From positions 1 to 45,061 of the forward strand of contig JAJDTN010000104.1 in NCBI GenBank assembly GCA_022827165.1: a DNA stretch of 45,061 nucleotides, read 5' to 3'. This document shows, piece after piece, positions 1 to 6,638 of the stretch (position 1 is its first letter; every line of letters starts with the position of its first letter). A model generated the notes under the pieces. It worked only from the letters and a program-made list of their open reading frames with translations. It was not told the origin of the DNA and did no database searches. This stretch comes from Candidatus Latescibacterota bacterium (GTDB taxonomy: Bacteria; Latescibacterota; UBA2968; UBA8231). The position numbers were made by a program, and so were the translations under genes.

Positions 1-2943
1 GATGATCCCGAAGGGCATGCGGAAGACCATGAGCCCGAGGAGGACGCCGGCGGTGGACATGATCACCGACGTGAGGATGATCACCGGCTTGATCACCGAG
101 TTGAACTGGGTCACGAGGATGAAGGCGATCAGGCCCAGGGCCGCCAGGAAGGCGGTGGCCAGGAACTCCATGGCCTCGCCTTGTTCCTCCTGCTGGCCGG
201 TGTAGCGCACCGTGTAGCCCGGGGGCAGCTCGTCTTCGACGAAGGACGCGAGGTGTTCCTGCACCTCGAAGAAGACGGCGTTCTTGTTGAGGCCGGCGCG
301 CACGTCCGAGCTGATCGTGGCCATGCGGTCCATGTCCTTGCGGCGGATCGAGCCGAGCCCCTCTCCCACCGTCCAGCTGGCCACCGAGACCAGGGGGATC
401 GGCTCGCCCGGACCGTTCTCCACGACCAGGTCGCGCAGCGACTCCAGGTCCTGCCGCCAGGGCTCGGCGAGGCGCACGACCACGTCGTACTCGTCGTTGC
501 CGGTGCGGTAGCGGCTCGCCTCCGTGCCCTGCACGGCGGTGCGCACGACGCCGGCCACCTTCGCCGTGGACAGCCCGTACATGGCGGCCCTCTCGCGGTC
601 GACGTGCACCGCCAGCTCGGGGCGGGCCTCGTCGAGGTCGCTCTCGAGGCCGCTGAGCTTCGGCGCCACGGGGGAGCTTCTCAGGACCTGCAGCACGCGG
701 TCGGAAAGGTCCTTGAGCACCCGGGGGTCCTTGCCGACGATCTCGATGTTCACCGGCGCCCCCTGGGGCGGCCCGTCCACGGGCTTGTCCACCGAGATCT
801 CGGCGCCGGCGATCTCGCGCCCAACCCTCTCCTGCATGCGCGCCAGGGTCTCGAAGCTGTCGAAGCGCCGCTCGTGGTACTCGGTGAAGTTCACCATGAC
901 GCGGGCGTCGTTGGCTCCCTGGGTGCCGCCTATCAGCGGGCTGCCTCCGGCGCCGACGGTGGTCACCGCCGACTCGGCGTCCTCGAAGCCCTGGACGCCG
1001 CGCACCTGCAGCTCCAGCTCGCGGGCGATGCCGTCGAGGTACTCGACGCGGGTGCCCACCGGCGCCTGGGCATCGACCCAGACCTGCCTGGGCGGGATGT
1101 CCTCCGGGAAGAACACGATGCCGCTGTTGAAGCGGCCGAAGGCGGCGACCATGACCACGAGCACCGCCAGGGACCCGGCGACGACGACGAGGCGGTGGCC
1201 GAGGGCCCAGCCCAGGACCCCCTCGTAACGGTCGATCAGCCACGGCAGGTCCGCTCCCTGGAAGCGCCGCGCCAGGGGACCGAGGATCAGGCGATGGGCC
1301 AGGATGGCGGCGACGGCGGTGGCGGCCAGCAGGGCCACGGTCAGGGCGTTGGCCGCGGCCAGACCCGCGGCGGCCAGAACGGCGAGGGCGATCAGCGCCA
1401 GGCGCCCAGAAAGCGGCATCCCGGCTCCGCGCTCTCCCTCCAGCCGCAGCCACCGGCTGCACAGCACCGGAACGATGACGAGGGCCACGAAGAGGGAGCT
1501 GGAGAGGGTGACGATCAGGGTCATGGGCAGGTACTTCATGAACTCGCCCACGGTGCCCGTCCAGAACAGGAGCGGACTGAAGGCGGCCAGGGTCGTCAAC
1601 GTCGAGGCGATGACGGGCAGAGCCACCTCTCCCGTGGCCTTGCGCGCGGCCTCTGCCCGGTCCCAGCCCTCCTCGACGTAGCGGTAGGTGTTCTCGACGA
1701 TGACGATGGCGTTGTCCACGAGCATGCCGAGGGCCAGGATCAGGGAGAACAGGACCACCATGTTCATGGTCACGCCGAGGAGCCCGAGGACGAGGAAGGA
1801 GAGCAGCATCGACGTGGGGATGGCGACGCCCACGAAGACCGAGGTGCGCACGCCGAGGAAGAACAGCAGCACCCCCACGATCAGCAGCAGGCCGGAGAGG
1901 ATGTTGTTCTCCAGGCTGCTGACCATCATGCGGATGTCGCGGGACATGTCGGAAGTCGTCTTGACCACCGTCGTGGGCGGGAGTTCCGCCTCCATCCCGG
2001 CGATGACGTCGCGCACGGCGTCGGCCGTCTCGATGATGTTCTCCCCCGTCCGCTTGATCACGTCGAGGGTGACCACCGGCCGGCCGTCGAGGCGGGCGTA
2101 GCTCCGGCGCTCGGCGAAGCCGAAGTCGACATCGGCCAGGTCGCGCACATAGACCGGCCGTCCTTCGGGAGCGGCGACCACGAGGTCGCCGATCGACCGG
2201 GGGTCGTCGATCTCGCCGTCGACGCGGACCAGGAACTTCAGCTCCCCCACGTCGATGGAGCCGCCGGGGATGTTGATGTTCTCGTCGCGCACCGTCTCGA
2301 CCACGTCCTTCAGGGTCAGACCGTAGTAGAGCAGGCGCGGCAGGGAGACGTCGACCTGCACCTCGCGCTCGCGGCCCCCGCGCAGGTCGACGCGCAGCAC
2401 CGAGGGGATCTGCTCCAGGCGGTCCTGCAGCTCCTCGCCCAGCTGCTTGAGGCGGACCAGGCCGTACTCCCCGGACAGGTTCACCTGCAGGATCGGCACG
2501 TCCTCGAAGTCGAACTCGTAGATGCGGGGCTCCTCGGCGTCGGCGGGGAGGTCGCCCTTGGCCAGATCGACCTTCTCGCGCACCAGCCGCATGGCCTCGG
2601 GGAGATCGACTTCGGTGCTGAACTCGGCCACCACGCTGGAGTAGCCCTCGACCGAGGTCGAGGTCAGCTCCTTCAGGTCCGGAATCGTCTTCAGCTCCAG
2701 CTCCAGCTCCCGCGTCACCAGGGACTCCATGTCCTTGGGCGACACCCCGGGGTAGATGGTGTTCACCGCGATGACGGGGATCTCGATCTGGGGGAAGGCC
2801 TCCTTGGGGACGCTGCGGTAGGCCACGACGCCGGCCAGGGCGATGATGGCGAAGAGCATGAGCACGCTGGTACCGTGGCGCACCGCCCAGGAGGTGACGG
2901 GCAGTTCGTCGAAGGCGTCGGGGCCGCCGGGGCGATCGGTCAT
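1..2943 (-). CDS. RND efflux transporter permease subunit (partial, C-terminus beyond window)
   Basis: This is the inner-membrane proton-driven pump of a tripartite RND efflux system; 981 N-terminal residues are visible and the frame is still open at base 1. The protein opens with a short cytoplasmic segment, a first membrane helix (about residues 25-42, SVLMLFAIIALAGVVAY) and the RND-typical FPQIEIPVI stretch leading into the periplasmic porter domain. The TM4 signature GMLVDNAIVIVEN is intact and carries the family's conserved proton-relay Asp. A second periplasmic half and the TM7-10 region follow, ending in QFNSVIKPVIILTSV. The ATG overlaps the adaptor stop as ATGA, so the two are translationally coupled. 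The co-encoded TolC-type protein and adaptor support a complete efflux operon. Substrate (drug versus other compound) cannot be told from the sequence. Confidence 0.95.
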   Translation of the reverse strand, partial: MTDRPGGPDAFDELPVTSWAVRHGTSVLMLFAIIALAGVVAYRSVPKEAFPQIEIPVIAVNTIYPGVSPKDMESLVTRELELELKTIPDLKELTSTSVEGYSSVVAEFSTEVDLPEAMRLVREKVDLAKGDLPADAEEPRIYEFDFEDVPILQVNLSGEYGLVRLKQLGEELQDRLEQIPSVLRVDLRGGREREVQVDVSLPRLLYYGLTLKDVVETVRDENINIPGGSIDVGELKFLVRVDGEIDDPRSIGDLVVAAPEGRPVYVRDLADVDFGFAERRSYARLDGRPVVTLDVIKRTGENIIETADAVRDVIAGMEAELPPTTVVKTTSDMSRDIRMMVSSLENNILSGLLLIVGVLLFFLGVRTSVFVGVAIPTSMLLSFLVLGLLGVTMNMVVLFSLILALGMLVDNAIVIVENTYRYVEEGWDRAEAARKATGEVALPVIASTLTTLAAFSPLLFWTGTVGEFMKYLPMTLIVTLSSSLFVALVIVPVLCSRWLRLEGERGAGMPLSGRLALIALAVLAAAGLAAANALTVALLAATAVAAILAHRLILGPLARRFQGADLPWLIDRYEGVLGWALGHRLVVVAGSLAVLVVMVAAFGRFNSGIVFFPEDIPPRQVWVDAQAPVGTRVEYLDGIARELELQVRGVQGFEDAESAVTTVGAGGSPLIGGTQGANDARVMVNFTEYHERRFDSFETLARMQERVGREIAGAEISVDKPVDGPPQGAPVNIEIVGKDPRVLKDLSDRVLQVLRSSPVAPKLSGLESDLDEARPELAVHVDRERAAMYGLSTAKVAGVVRTAVQGTEASRYRTGNDEYDVVVRLAEPWRQDLESLRDLVVENGPGEPIPLVSVASWTVGEGLGSIRRKDMDRMATISSDVRAGLNKNAVFFEVQEHLASFVEDELPPGYTVRYTGQQEEQGEAMEFLATAFLAALGLIAFILVTQFNSVIKPVIILTSVIMSTAGVLLGLMVFRMPFGII

Positions 2944-4025
2944 CGGGATACGATGCGCAGGCGGTCGCCGTCGGCCACCTGCTGCTGGCCGACGACGATC
3001 AGGCGGTCCGCCGGGGACAGGCCCGAGGTGGCCACCACCTCGTCGCCGCCCGAGGCGCCGAGGGTGACGGGGCGGGCCCGGGCGACGGGGCCTTCACCGG
3101 CGTCGCCGGCGACGAAGGCGGTGAAGCCTTCCTCGGTGCGGACCAGGGCCTGGTTCGGCACCACGATGGCCCCGGGATGGACCTCCAGCACGAGCATCAC
3201 CTCGGCGACCATGGCCGGCTTGGCCCCGGACACGGCGCGCTCGAGGGCGAGCTCGACGGGGAAGGTGCGGTGGCGGCCGTCGACGGCGGCTCCCACGTAG
3301 GTCACCGTGGCCGCGCAGGTGTCTCCGAGGTCGGCGAAGGCGACCGTCGCCCGGTCGCCGGTGCTCACGTCCGCGGCGTAGCGCTCCGGGACGCCGGCAG
3401 TCACCTTCAGGGGCTCCAGGTCGAGGATGTGGGCCACCGCCTGGCCCGGGGCGACGACCGAGCCGACCTCCACGAGGCGGCGGTCGAGAAGGCCATCGAA
3501 GGGCGCCCGCACCACGGTGCGCCGGAGCCGCGCCTCGATCAGCTCCAGCCGGGCTTGGCTCTGCTCGGCGGCGAGACGGGCCTCGACGTACTCCCCCTCG
3601 GTGCCGACGCGTTCCTCCTCGTAGAGCCGCTTCCGGCGCACCCAGCGGTCGGCTGCCAGGGCCGACTGGGCCTGCGCCTCGCCGCGCTGGGCGCGCAGCA
3701 GCTCGTCGTCGAGCCGGACCAGCGCCTGGCCGCGGCGCACCTTCTCGCCCTTGTCGGCCAGGATCGCGGCCACCGTGCCGCCCTCCTCGGCGGCCACCGT
3801 CACCTGGCGGTCGGCGCCGACCGTGCCGGTGAGGCGGATCATGTCGGTGAAGGGCCGCGCCTCCAGGATCTCGACTTCGACGTTGATGATGCGCCGGGTG
3901 TCGGGAGCGGTGGACTCGTCATCGGCGGGCGCGTCCCCGCAGCCTCCGAGGGCGAGCAGGGCCGCGGCGGCGGCCGGCGGAAGGGCGCCTCGGACGCGGC
4001 GCCACCAGGGCAGGGGATTCCTCAC
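2940..4025 (-). CDS. RND periplasmic adaptor (membrane fusion) lipoprotein
   Basis: A 361-residue HlyD/AcrA-type adaptor that would bridge the RND pump and the TolC-type channel in the periplasm. It has an N-terminal lipoprotein signal with the lipobox LGGC, so it is probably anchored in the inner membrane through the lipidated Cys. The barrel-sandwich (lipoyl-like) halves are recognisable (VTVAAEEGGTVAAI and VRAPFDGLLDRRLVEVGS), flanking an Ala/Glu/Arg-rich helical hairpin of about 80 residues. Beta-barrel and membrane-proximal domains follow. The start is GTG at 4025, overlapping the TolC-type stop as GTGA, with a GGAGGA ribosome site just upstream inside the previous gene. Its own stop overlaps the permease ATG. 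Gene order outer-membrane protein, adaptor, pump agrees with the assignment. Confidence 0.95.
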   Translation of the reverse strand: MRNPLPWWRRVRGALPPAAAAALLALGGCGDAPADDESTAPDTRRIINVEVEILEARPFTDMIRLTGTVGADRQVTVAAEEGGTVAAILADKGEKVRRGQALVRLDDELLRAQRGEAQAQSALAADRWVRRKRLYEEERVGTEGEYVEARLAAEQSQARLELIEARLRRTVVRAPFDGLLDRRLVEVGSVVAPGQAVAHILDLEPLKVTAGVPERYAADVSTGDRATVAFADLGDTCAATVTYVGAAVDGRHRTFPVELALERAVSGAKPAMVAEVMLVLEVHPGAIVVPNQALVRTEEGFTAFVAGDAGEGPVARARPVTLGASGGDEVVATSGLSPADRLIVVGQQQVADGDRLRIVSR

Positions 4026-6094
4026 TCCATCTCCTCCGGGTCGAGTGCGGGCTCGCCGTCGACGGGGGACACCCGTCCGATGGCGAGGCCCAGCTGGGCC
4101 CGTCTGGCGAGCCGGTCGTGGGCCGCCTGGGCCATGTTGAACTCGCTGCGCCGCAGGGCGACCTCGGCATCGGTCACCTCGAGCTGGCTGCCGAGGCCCT
4201 CGCGGAAGCGGGCGCTGGCGATCTCGAACCCCCGCCGGGCCTGGGCCACGGCGAGGCGCTGGCCTTCCTGGCGCCGGCCGGCCTCGGCCAGCGCCGCCTC
4301 CAGGTCACGGACCTGGACCGCCGCCTGATCGCGGGCCATCTGTGTCCGGACCTGCGCCTGGCGCAGGGCGGCCTGCCTCTGGTCGATGCGCGCGTCTCTC
4401 TGCAGGCCGCTGAACAGGGGCAGCTCCACGGAGAGGCCGGCCATCTTGCTGGTGGCGCGGTTGCGGGCGCTGCCGAAGAAGTCGGGTCTTCCGTCCTGCT
4501 GCGCCTGCACGTCCCAGGTGGCGAAGAGGGAGAGCTTGGGCAGGTACTCCGCCTGCTCGATCCGCACCTGCCTCCGGCTCAGCTCGGCGGTCTGCTCGAG
4601 CTGGCGCACGTCGGAGCGGTGCGCCAGCGCCGTCTGCACCAGGTCCCCGTCCGGCAACTCCCGGCCGGAGTCGGCCGTGGTGAGGGATGCGCTCCCGGAC
4701 AACCGCAGCCGGCCGGGGTCGTCGAGGGCCAGCTCCAGGCCCAGGCGCCGGCGCGCCGAGTCCCTGGCGTTGCGGGCCTTCAGCAGCTCCGGCTCGAGGT
4801 TGGCCAGCTCGACCTCCAGCCGCAGCACGTCGTAGTCGGAGGCCAGGCCCGCCCGGGCCCGGGCGCGGGTCTCGTCGAGGGCTTGCCGCAGGCGGTCCAG
4901 GGACCGCTCGGTGAGGCGCACCTCCTCTCCGCGCAGCAGCAGGTCGAAGCAGAGGAGGCGCACCCGCGTCGCCACCTGCTGCGACTGGCCGCGCACCATC
5001 TCCGTCCGCAGCCGCAGGTAGTCGCCGGCCGCGCCGAGGCCGACGAGGGCTCTCGGGTCGAACAGCGGCTGCCGCAGAGTGACGGCGCTCTGCCAGCTGT
5101 TGTCGGCGCCGAACTCCAGGGAGATGAACTCCCCCTCCGGGGCCGCGGGATTGAAGAACCTCGCCGGCACGAAGGAGACGGGCGGCGAGATGTTGCGCGC
5201 GTAACGGGCCGAGAAGTCGACGCGGGGCCAGACCTCTCCCCAGGCTTCGGAGGCCCGCTCCTCGGCCTCGGTCACGAGCAGCCGCGCCTCCGCCATCTCG
5301 CGGCCCCGGTCCAGGGCCAGCTCCACCACCTCGTCGATGCTCAGCAGCAACTCGCCGCCTGGGGGAGTGTCCTCCGCGACAACCGGCGCCCCCCAGCCCA
5401 TCAGGAGCCAGGTCAGCACGGACGAGGCCCGGGCGCGCAGCCGGCCCTTGCCGCCGGCAGCGGCTGCCGCCTCCGACTGCGAGAGATCCGCCATGGCGCG
5501 GTCCATCTCCACCTCGTAGGCGGGGGTGGCCATTCCGGTGATCGCCCGCCGGCTCGAGGCCCGGTAGTGGCGGCGGAACTCCCCGGCATCCATCTGCAGG
5601 CAGCCGCGCAGGTAGATGGAGATCAGGCCGTGGGCGTGGGCCCACAAGGTGCAGGAGACGTCGGCGGGGTCGAGGGGCTGGAAGAGGCCGGCGTCGATGC
5701 ACTCGCGCACACGGTCGTTGAAGAACCGGCCGACGCTGGCGACCTGCTCCGTCACCTGCTCGGGGAACTCGTCCACGCCGAGGGTGTGGGCGGGGGTGTA
5801 GAGCATCTCGTAGTACTTCGGCTGATCGAGGGCGAAGTCGAGGTAGGCCTGGCCCGCCAGGTAGAGGCGCTCGGCGGGGGTGCGCCCCGAAAGGGCGCCG
5901 TAGAGCCGCTCGCTCAGCCGCCGGTAGGCCTCGGCGACGACGTCGAGGAGCATCGCCTCGCGGCTGTCGTAGTGACGGTAGAGGGCCGGCGCCGTGACCC
6001 CCAGGTCGCGGGCCAGCCGGCGCATGGAGACGGCCTCGGCGCCGCCCTCCAGGTAGAGCTCGCAGGCTCTCGTGAGGATATCCGTGCGGTCCAT
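4022..6094 (-). CDS. TetR-type regulator fused in frame to TolC-family outer-membrane efflux protein
   Basis: One uninterrupted 690-codon frame contains two proteins that normally live in different compartments. Residues 1 to about 196 are a complete TetR/AcrR regulator: the N-terminal helix-turn-helix includes MRRLARDLGVTAPALYRHY, followed by an all-helical ligand domain of the usual length. Residues about 245-690 are a complete TolC/OEP protein with two repeats of long Ala/Arg/Gln-rich helices (for example LVQTALAHRSDVRQLEQTAE). Between them, residues 201-240 look like a signal peptide: basic KGRLRAR, hydrophobic SSVLTWLLMGWG, and a plausible cleavage site after PVVA. There is no stop between the halves. 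An in-frame ATG at 5506 (codon 197) has GAGG five bases upstream, so the TolC half could also be made separately. It heads the efflux operon. A sequencing indel alone would not explain it, because both halves share the frame exactly. Confidence 0.9.
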   Translation of the reverse strand: MDRTDILTRACELYLEGGAEAVSMRRLARDLGVTAPALYRHYDSREAMLLDVVAEAYRRLSERLYGALSGRTPAERLYLAGQAYLDFALDQPKYYEMLYTPAHTLGVDEFPEQVTEQVASVGRFFNDRVRECIDAGLFQPLDPADVSCTLWAHAHGLISIYLRGCLQMDAGEFRRHYRASSRRAITGMATPAYEVEMDRAMADLSQSEAAAAAGGKGRLRARASSVLTWLLMGWGAPVVAEDTPPGGELLLSIDEVVELALDRGREMAEARLLVTEAEERASEAWGEVWPRVDFSARYARNISPPVSFVPARFFNPAAPEGEFISLEFGADNSWQSAVTLRQPLFDPRALVGLGAAGDYLRLRTEMVRGQSQQVATRVRLLCFDLLLRGEEVRLTERSLDRLRQALDETRARARAGLASDYDVLRLEVELANLEPELLKARNARDSARRRLGLELALDDPGRLRLSGSASLTTADSGRELPDGDLVQTALAHRSDVRQLEQTAELSRRQVRIEQAEYLPKLSLFATWDVQAQQDGRPDFFGSARNRATSKMAGLSVELPLFSGLQRDARIDQRQAALRQAQVRTQMARDQAAVQVRDLEAALAEAGRRQEGQRLAVAQARRGFEIASARFREGLGSQLEVTDAEVALRRSEFNMAQAAHDRLARRAQLGLAIGRVSPVDGEPALDPEEME
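5504..5517 (-). promoter_or_regulatory. candidate internal ribosome site and start for the TolC half
   Basis: On the minus strand the bases CGAGGTGGAG directly precede an in-frame ATG (5506-5504). GAGG sits five bases from the ATG, good Shine-Dalgarno spacing. A second in-frame ATG lies at 5494-5492. Initiation here would give an exported TolC protein beginning with a credible signal peptide and no DNA-binding domain. Use of this start is inferred. Confidence 0.45.
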
Positions 6095-6103
6095 GAGTGA
6101 ACG

Positions 6104-6132
6104 ATGTTAACTGGAGGTCCCCACCTTGTCAA
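6104..6132 (-). promoter_or_regulatory. sigma70-like promoter of the efflux operon
   Basis: Reading the minus strand, a perfect -35 box TTGACA (6132-6127) is followed after exactly 17 bases by TAACAT (6109-6104). The predicted transcription start falls only a few bases before the ATG at 6094, so the mRNA would be almost leaderless. This fits the lack of a clear Shine-Dalgarno sequence ahead of the regulator start. Confidence 0.65.
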
Positions 6133-6191: not shown

Positions 6192-6638
6192 TCAGGACCC
6201 GAGCACGGCCATGCAGCACTTCTTGAACTTCCGGCCGCTGCCGCAGGGACAGGGGTCGTTGCGGCCGGTGACGGCGCCGCGGCGCCGCACGGTCTCGCCC
6301 CGGACGCTGCCGTCCCGGCGAAAGGCGGCGAGGTACACCGCCTCCATGGAATCCACCCGCTGCGCCCACTCCCCGCCCAGGGGGAACCGTCCCGTGACCG
6401 GCAGGTACTCGAGGAACTCCCTGAGCAGGCGCGGGAAGGCGCGCCGCTGCGCCAGGGGGGCGTCGAGCCGGGCGACGCTCCTCAGGGCGCGTTCCATGGC
6501 CTCCTCGGAGACCACGTCGCCCACCTGCTCGCACCAGTGCCCCAGTAGGGGCTCGGCGCCGTCCTTCAGGTGGTCGTCCAGCAGCAGGAAGTGCTGCGAA
6601 CCGGCGAAGGCGCCGACCTCGTCGGTGAGCCTGGACAT
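6192..6638 (-). CDS. small SEC-C zinc-motif protein
   Basis: A 148-residue protein ending in a SEC-C motif, [18 protein letters not shown]. This is the CxC...CC zinc-binding tail known from the C-terminus of SecA and from YchJ/YecA-type proteins. The first 120 residues are helical and charged and are not a family I recognise. It starts 18 bases after the gltD stop on the same strand, so it is probably the last gene of the gltB-gltD operon. Its role is unknown; SEC-C tails in other proteins bind zinc and can contact ribosomes or SecB, but nothing here shows a partner. The motif closely matches the SecA tail encoded at 30165-30231. Confidence 0.8.

Follow-up and report, generated by a model that had tools for sequence, protein, structure and literature searches.

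We analyzed a stretch of 45,061 nucleotides (contig JAJDTN010000104.1 from a Candidatus Latescibacterota bacterium), hereafter the window, in which one open reading frame (ORF) encodes a TetR-type repressor followed by a TolC-type outer-membrane channel. A TetR repressor and an outer-membrane channel are expected in different cell compartments. Both halves belong to ordinary families and their joining appears to be the new part. We favor, with a probability of roughly 55%, the explanation that a local TetR autorepressor gene and the adjacent channel gene of an RND efflux operon merged in one lineage and are made as a precursor.

The initial annotation had described 690 codons without a stop, a full TetR domain and then a full TolC domain, and the open frame, the Pfam domains and a structural model bear this out exactly at 4022-6094. 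The single frame of 690 codons plus stop runs from an ATG at 6094-6092 to a TGA at 4024-4022; the coordinates given earlier stand, and the strand, which had been left out, is the minus strand. The junction had been placed at 5480-5560, slightly off the linker and signal-like segment, which occupy about 5375-5524. An ORF of 660 codons also lies opposite the fusion at 4118-6100 on the plus strand, which we read as a by-product of high GC. Because the GC content of the window is 0.706 and this antisense ORF covers the same place, the openness of a frame is weak evidence, and we rejected it as evidence by itself. What goes beyond chance is that two complete domains share one frame and that this frame is kept in 15 other protein clusters.

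Pfam places TetR_N at residues 6-51 (43.8 bits, cutoff 24) and TetR_C_33 at residues 80-170 (49.5 bits, cutoff 26.8), and the model matches the solved TetR chain 3on2 over its whole length (TM-score by target length 0.82-0.83). The helix-turn-helix of TetR_N and the all-helical C-terminal domain that characterize the family are thus both present by Pfam and fold. The OEP domain is found in two stretches (174 bits), the better one at residues 484-673, and whole chains of the TolC/OprM/CusC type match the model with TM-scores by target length of 0.68-0.83 (rows 1-38 of the matches), giving the duplicated OEP with TolC fold that is expected of an outer-membrane factor. The cleavable signal peptide of such proteins is absent from the N-terminus of the ORF; a signal-like segment lies at residues 216-240 and would be close to an N-terminus only with translation from Met197. 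The AlphaFold2 model, built from an alignment of 101 sequences, has a mean predicted local distance difference test score (pLDDT) of 89.9, with every 10-residue block of residues 1-200 above 90 and values below 50 confined to residues 215-225, 227-229, and 233-242. An earlier model from 25 sequences was poor (mean pLDDT 67.0) and did not resolve the TetR part. Residues 1-190 are a whole TetR regulator and residues 241-690 a whole TolC-type outer-membrane factor.

The fusion is conserved. Among the best 120 of 593 matches from a search of about 5.8 billion proteins, 15 other clusters (P0002-P0016; 689-691 amino acids, 80-100% identical) have the same TetR-OEP architecture, some of them on contigs of 1.3-5.6 Mb, and beyond these only P0018 (640 amino acids) carries both domains. 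A search of long proteins seeded with residues 1-205 returned 21 matches, 16 of which combine TetR and OEP, belong to the one fused clade and are the same 15 clusters and P0018; the other five have no OEP. At the DNA level a fused copy, 88% identical, is present in the Gemmatimonadaceae metagenome-assembled genome (MAG) COS4_bin_9 (locus L036). The viral contigs searched gave no match. We built a tree from the TolC part only (45 rows, P0018 left out), in which rows were labeled separate when the ORF itself had no TetR. The 16 fused rows (window included) together with P0017 and P0019 form one clade with support of 100/100, and its sister is P0020 plus P0021. The label "fused" changes 3 times on this tree because P0017 and P0019, inside the clade, are labeled unknown; these proteins (500 amino acids on a 2,027-base contig, and 435 amino acids, respectively) begin within or after the junction region. 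It had been proposed initially to look for the architecture in relatives, with a true fusion or a stop-less overlap as the choices and always-separate orthologues as one finding that would speak against both. The architecture is conserved in the 15 clusters and, as DNA, in the one MAG, and orthologues are fused inside the clade and separate outside it (5/5), which supports that pair of choices.

The repressor half appears to be maintained. Between the window and L036 the ratio of nonsynonymous to synonymous substitution (Ka/Ks) comes to 0.173 in the TetR domain (residues 1-190), 0.492 in residues 191-240, and 0.291 in the TolC part; a value of 1.3 for residues 221-240 alone covers 20 codons and was not used. 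Across the 16 fused proteins, 43 of the 50 N-terminal residues are invariant, as are 23 of the 24 residues at positions 23-46. By these sequence comparisons the TetR part is under purifying selection.

A candidate operator precedes the gene. An inverted repeat, GTTAAC-NNN-(G/A)T(T/A)(A/C)AC, begins 15-17 nt before the start codon at all seven loci, fused and unfused. The pattern has one match in the window and none in 100 shuffles, and in each of six whole genomes it has one site, always before the start codon (the two rows for G023 are the two strands). Against an operator, reversing the pattern as a control still yielded 4 matches, spread over 3 of the six genomes, so the pattern itself is not rare, and it was derived from the same loci. 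Because the reversed control also matched, the evidence lies in the position before the start codon and not in rarity. TTGACA, a 17-nt spacer and TAACAT (6104-6109) would place a -10 element inside the inverted repeat, and the repressor may therewith have a site over its own promoter. The ribosome-binding site of tetR is nearly nil (anti-Shine-Dalgarno energy 0.9 in the window, -2.4 in L036, and -2.2 to -3.1 in relatives), which would fit a very short leader.

Related genomes hold a likely starting state. Of 25 genomes from the family of COS4_bin_9, one has the fused gene and five have both parts as neighbors; the remaining 19 have distant matches only, with no orthologous pair at E <= 1e-60. 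A search of 64 genomes of the phylum (the same 25 included), scoring up to 18 candidates in each, found no further case. In all five neighbor pairs (L037-L041) tetR and tolC are separate, tolC lies in the +2 frame, with an ATG that overlaps the tetR stop by 4 nt (ATGA). The fused DNAs of the window and L036 have neither this stop nor this start: codons 202-230 contain no ATG in any frame and no stop in the TetR frame, so the ATGA overlap has been dissolved. The tolC frame is already open upstream of its start, for 459 nt in L040 and 24-87 nt in the other four, and one frame change can therefore suffice to fuse such a pair. Lys216 is probably the counterpart of the old tolC start, judging from the Met of P0017, and is not fixed with single-base precision, since the ATGA sites of the five relatives fall in neighboring columns of the MAFFT alignment.

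The sister lineage may record a later state. P0020 begins inside the TetR tail, in frame with TolC (score 125, against 50 for the best of 2,000 shuffles), which suggests that the joined frames predate the split from the P0020 lineage, with loss of the repressor in that lineage afterwards. The matches listed include no TetR protein of 73-95% identity that might be the partner of P0020 or P0021, and this too suggests repressor loss in their lineage. P0021 starts right at the signal-like segment. Elsewhere in the family, locus L042 (G018:C86:9455-11413, minus strand) holds a different TetR-TolC pair, distantly related (26% identical), whose two parts share a frame and are separated by a single TGA; same-frame neighbors one stop short of fusion therefore occur there. 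A TetR relative (P0122, 48% identical) is predicted behind an amidohydrolase-type domain (PF07969) in a protein of 461 amino acids on a contig of 2,854 bases; neighbors may have been joined here as well, or the contig may be misassembled.

In the joined frame the repressor and channel are probably made as one precursor, as far as the reading frame can tell. Since tetR has no stop, synthesis of the conserved repressor must, at least to begin with, yield a protein joined to TolC; the TetR-alone product of 21 kDa proposed initially has no stop codon here to end it and would need proteolysis or frameshifting. The distance from Met197 to the first TolC motif is 50-52 residues in P0001-P0016, and a basic stretch (K216-R222 in the window), a hydrophobic stretch and a small-residue motif are kept, by eye, in 16 of 16 fused proteins. 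We propose that the ancestor had two genes in different frames with an ATGA overlap, and that a shift of frame where they meet, together with loss of both the tetR stop and the tolC start, would have produced the single frame. The ribosome would then make one precursor of roughly 75 kDa, whose TetR part would stay in the cytoplasm, dimerize and bind the inverted repeat over the promoter, while the internal signal segment would enter the Sec translocon in an N-in/C-out orientation. Signal peptidase I may split the precursor at about Ala240, freeing TolC for the outer membrane, and the TetR part would keep a hydrophobic tail and be either tethered to the membrane or trimmed. One message would thus give repressor and channel at 1:1, with extra TolC possibly coming from Met197. 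A more elaborate version, in which Sec engagement and cleavage by signal peptidase would govern if, where and for how long TetR reaches its single operator, so that the cell reads the success of channel export from the state of the repressor, is speculative and in our judgment improbable.

Internal initiation at Met197 may be the main rival of a single precursor, or a supplement to it. In a stop-less overlap of this kind TolC would come mainly from Met197, as a 494-residue precursor with a long signal peptide, and the full-length product would serve as repressor, its TolC part exported or not. The sequence GAGGTGGAG before Met197 is identical in the window and L036, and with an anti-Shine-Dalgarno energy of -7.2 Met197 ranks third among in-frame starts in both (of 41 and 33, respectively) and is the best ATG in each. 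No other in-frame ATG has as good a ribosome-binding site, and a long and a short product may therefore both be made. Met197 is present in all 16 fused proteins and in P0017 and P0018, and strong sites precede tolC in three of the five relatives (-7.2, -10.0, and -10.2; the others -5.0 and 0.7). However, two GTG codons of the window outscore Met197, and the full-length product would still be obligatory because tetR has no stop. An ATG also stands in the same column in the unfused L037 and L038, outside the tolC frame; because it is unusable by tolC there, it may be kept for TetR. We therefore regard TolC production mainly from Met197 as a tentative explanation, clearly less probable than the single precursor.

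Several observations weigh against a merged gene made as one precursor. Among the best 120 of 448 matches from a search of TetR-sized proteins, only P0127 (99%) and P0128 (96%) exceed 72% identity, and both leave the fused frame in the linker. P0127 departs near codon 213, and its last 14 residues are exactly the +1 frame of the window up to its stop; P0128 departs near codon 212, and its tail fits the window best at shift-2 (130 vs 34) and L036 better at shift-1 than at shift-2 (103 vs 73). Both may be real unfused alleles, or else products of sequencing error in a GC-rich stretch. P0018 loses the frame further on, within the later part of TolC, the sister P0020 keeps the TetR tail only, showing that the repressor can be lost, and the fused sequences known as DNA are two, the window and L036. 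A folded repressor ahead of a signal sequence is, moreover, an unusual precursor. The frame-shifted pair could mean that the GC-rich linker often gains and loses bases, with fused and unfused alleles in populations, and the linker does change in length by whole codons among fused proteins. We consider this improbable: the 15 other full-length clusters are all in frame, and inspection by eye showed neither a homopolymer nor a simple repeat of the kind usual in phase variation, no dedicated repeat search having been made. P0127 has, by eye, no good tolC start in its unfused frame and may therefore be a defective copy or a sequencing error, and no TetR-only protein of the fused clade with a clean end is among those same 120 matches. 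That the TetR part is a dead leftover merely lengthening the N-terminus of TolC, a state that the in-frame TetR tail of P0020 might illustrate, is very improbable given the low Ka/Ks, the near-invariant helix-turn-helix region and the conserved operator-like site. Least probable of all is an assembly or sequencing error in the window that removed a stop or changed the frame. Frame-shifted copies exist, but the same fused frame in 15 clusters and an independent MAG makes an error in this one contig very unlikely, and we rejected an error private to it.

The neighboring genes fit the two halves of the fusion (Table 1). Genes for an adaptor and an RND transporter lie downstream on the same strand, from which we take the fusion to supply the regulator and the channel of a tripartite efflux operon. 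A small protein with a C-terminal SEC-C motif is encoded at 6192-6638 on the minus strand, immediately upstream of the fusion.

Table 1. Positions in the window of the fused gene, its parts and the adjoining operon genes
Feature	Positions	Strand	Remarks
TetR-TolC fused ORF	4022..6094	-	690 codons plus stop; architecture common to P0002-P0016 and L001/L036
TetR domain, residues 1-190	5525..6094	-	Pfam, pLDDT, Ka/Ks, invariance; helix-turn-helix at about residues 23-46
Linker, residues 191-220	5435..5524	-	Length varies in steps of whole codons; TetR frame free of stops
Met197 ATG, candidate internal start	5504..5506	-	Preceded by GAGGTGGAG
Codon 216 (AAG, Lys)	5447..5449	-	Likely counterpart of the lost tolC start; Met in P0017
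Signal-peptide-like segment, residues 216-240	5375..5449	-	Basic stretch, hydrophobic stretch, V-V-A before Glu241
TolC-type outer-membrane factor domain, residues 241-690	4025..5374	-	Pfam OEP; fold of TolC, OprM, CusC
Operator-like inverted repeat GTTAAC-ATC-GTTCAC	6097..6111	-	
TTGACA, -35-like	6127..6132	-	7/7 loci, at -37 or -38
HlyD-type periplasmic adaptor	2940..4025	-	TIGR01730, 188.3 bits (cutoff 94.9); GTG start overlaps the fusion stop (GTGA)
RND (AcrB-type) transporter, cut by the window edge	1..2943	-	PF00873, 571 bits; start overlaps the adaptor stop (ATGA)

The arrangement resembles several known systems without coinciding with any of them. With AcrR-type TetR repressors of RND operons it shares the TetR fold, the helix-turn-helix, a palindrome-like site by the promoter, and neighboring adaptor, transporter and channel genes. 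Local TetR efflux regulators with palindromic sites are described as separate and divergently oriented genes (PMC8277102), whereas the regulator here points the same way as the channel and shares its frame. The TolC half has the complete OEP domain and fold of TolC, OprM and CusC, as well as adaptor and RND genes downstream, but the fusion places about 216 extra residues, a whole repressor, before the signal-like segment. CadC is a transmembrane regulator of the same type as ToxR and TcpP, and the DNA-binding domain of ToxR is an OmpR-type winged helix-turn-helix. The order of a cytoplasmic DNA-binding domain, a hydrophobic segment and an exported domain, as in ToxR and TcpP, is also the one predicted here; in contrast, the DNA-binding domain of the fused protein is of the TetR type, its exported part is an outer-membrane channel, and its hydrophobic segment resembles a cleavable signal peptide. 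Pfam reports no OmpR-type winged helix-turn-helix in the fused protein, TetR_N being the sole DNA-binding domain. The GeneTack survey covers coupled overlapping gene pairs and frame transitions and points out that neighboring genes may, in other genomes, have homologues that are fused (PMC3711429). The ATGA overlap of the relatives is such a pair, but here the fused frame itself has become fixed across a clade, and the proteins it unites belong to different compartments. In the open-access literature searched we found no account of TetR and TolC joined in a single conserved frame.

The birth and decay of the fusion can be traced, because the relatives with the ATGA overlap represent the state before it and the sister lineage, where TetR is mostly gone, a possible state after it. 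If the product is a single polypeptide, bacteria can have, as an ordinary gene product, an outer-membrane protein whose signal sequence is preceded by a folded cytoplasmic domain, and a repressor can be locked in a 1:1 ratio to the target it controls.

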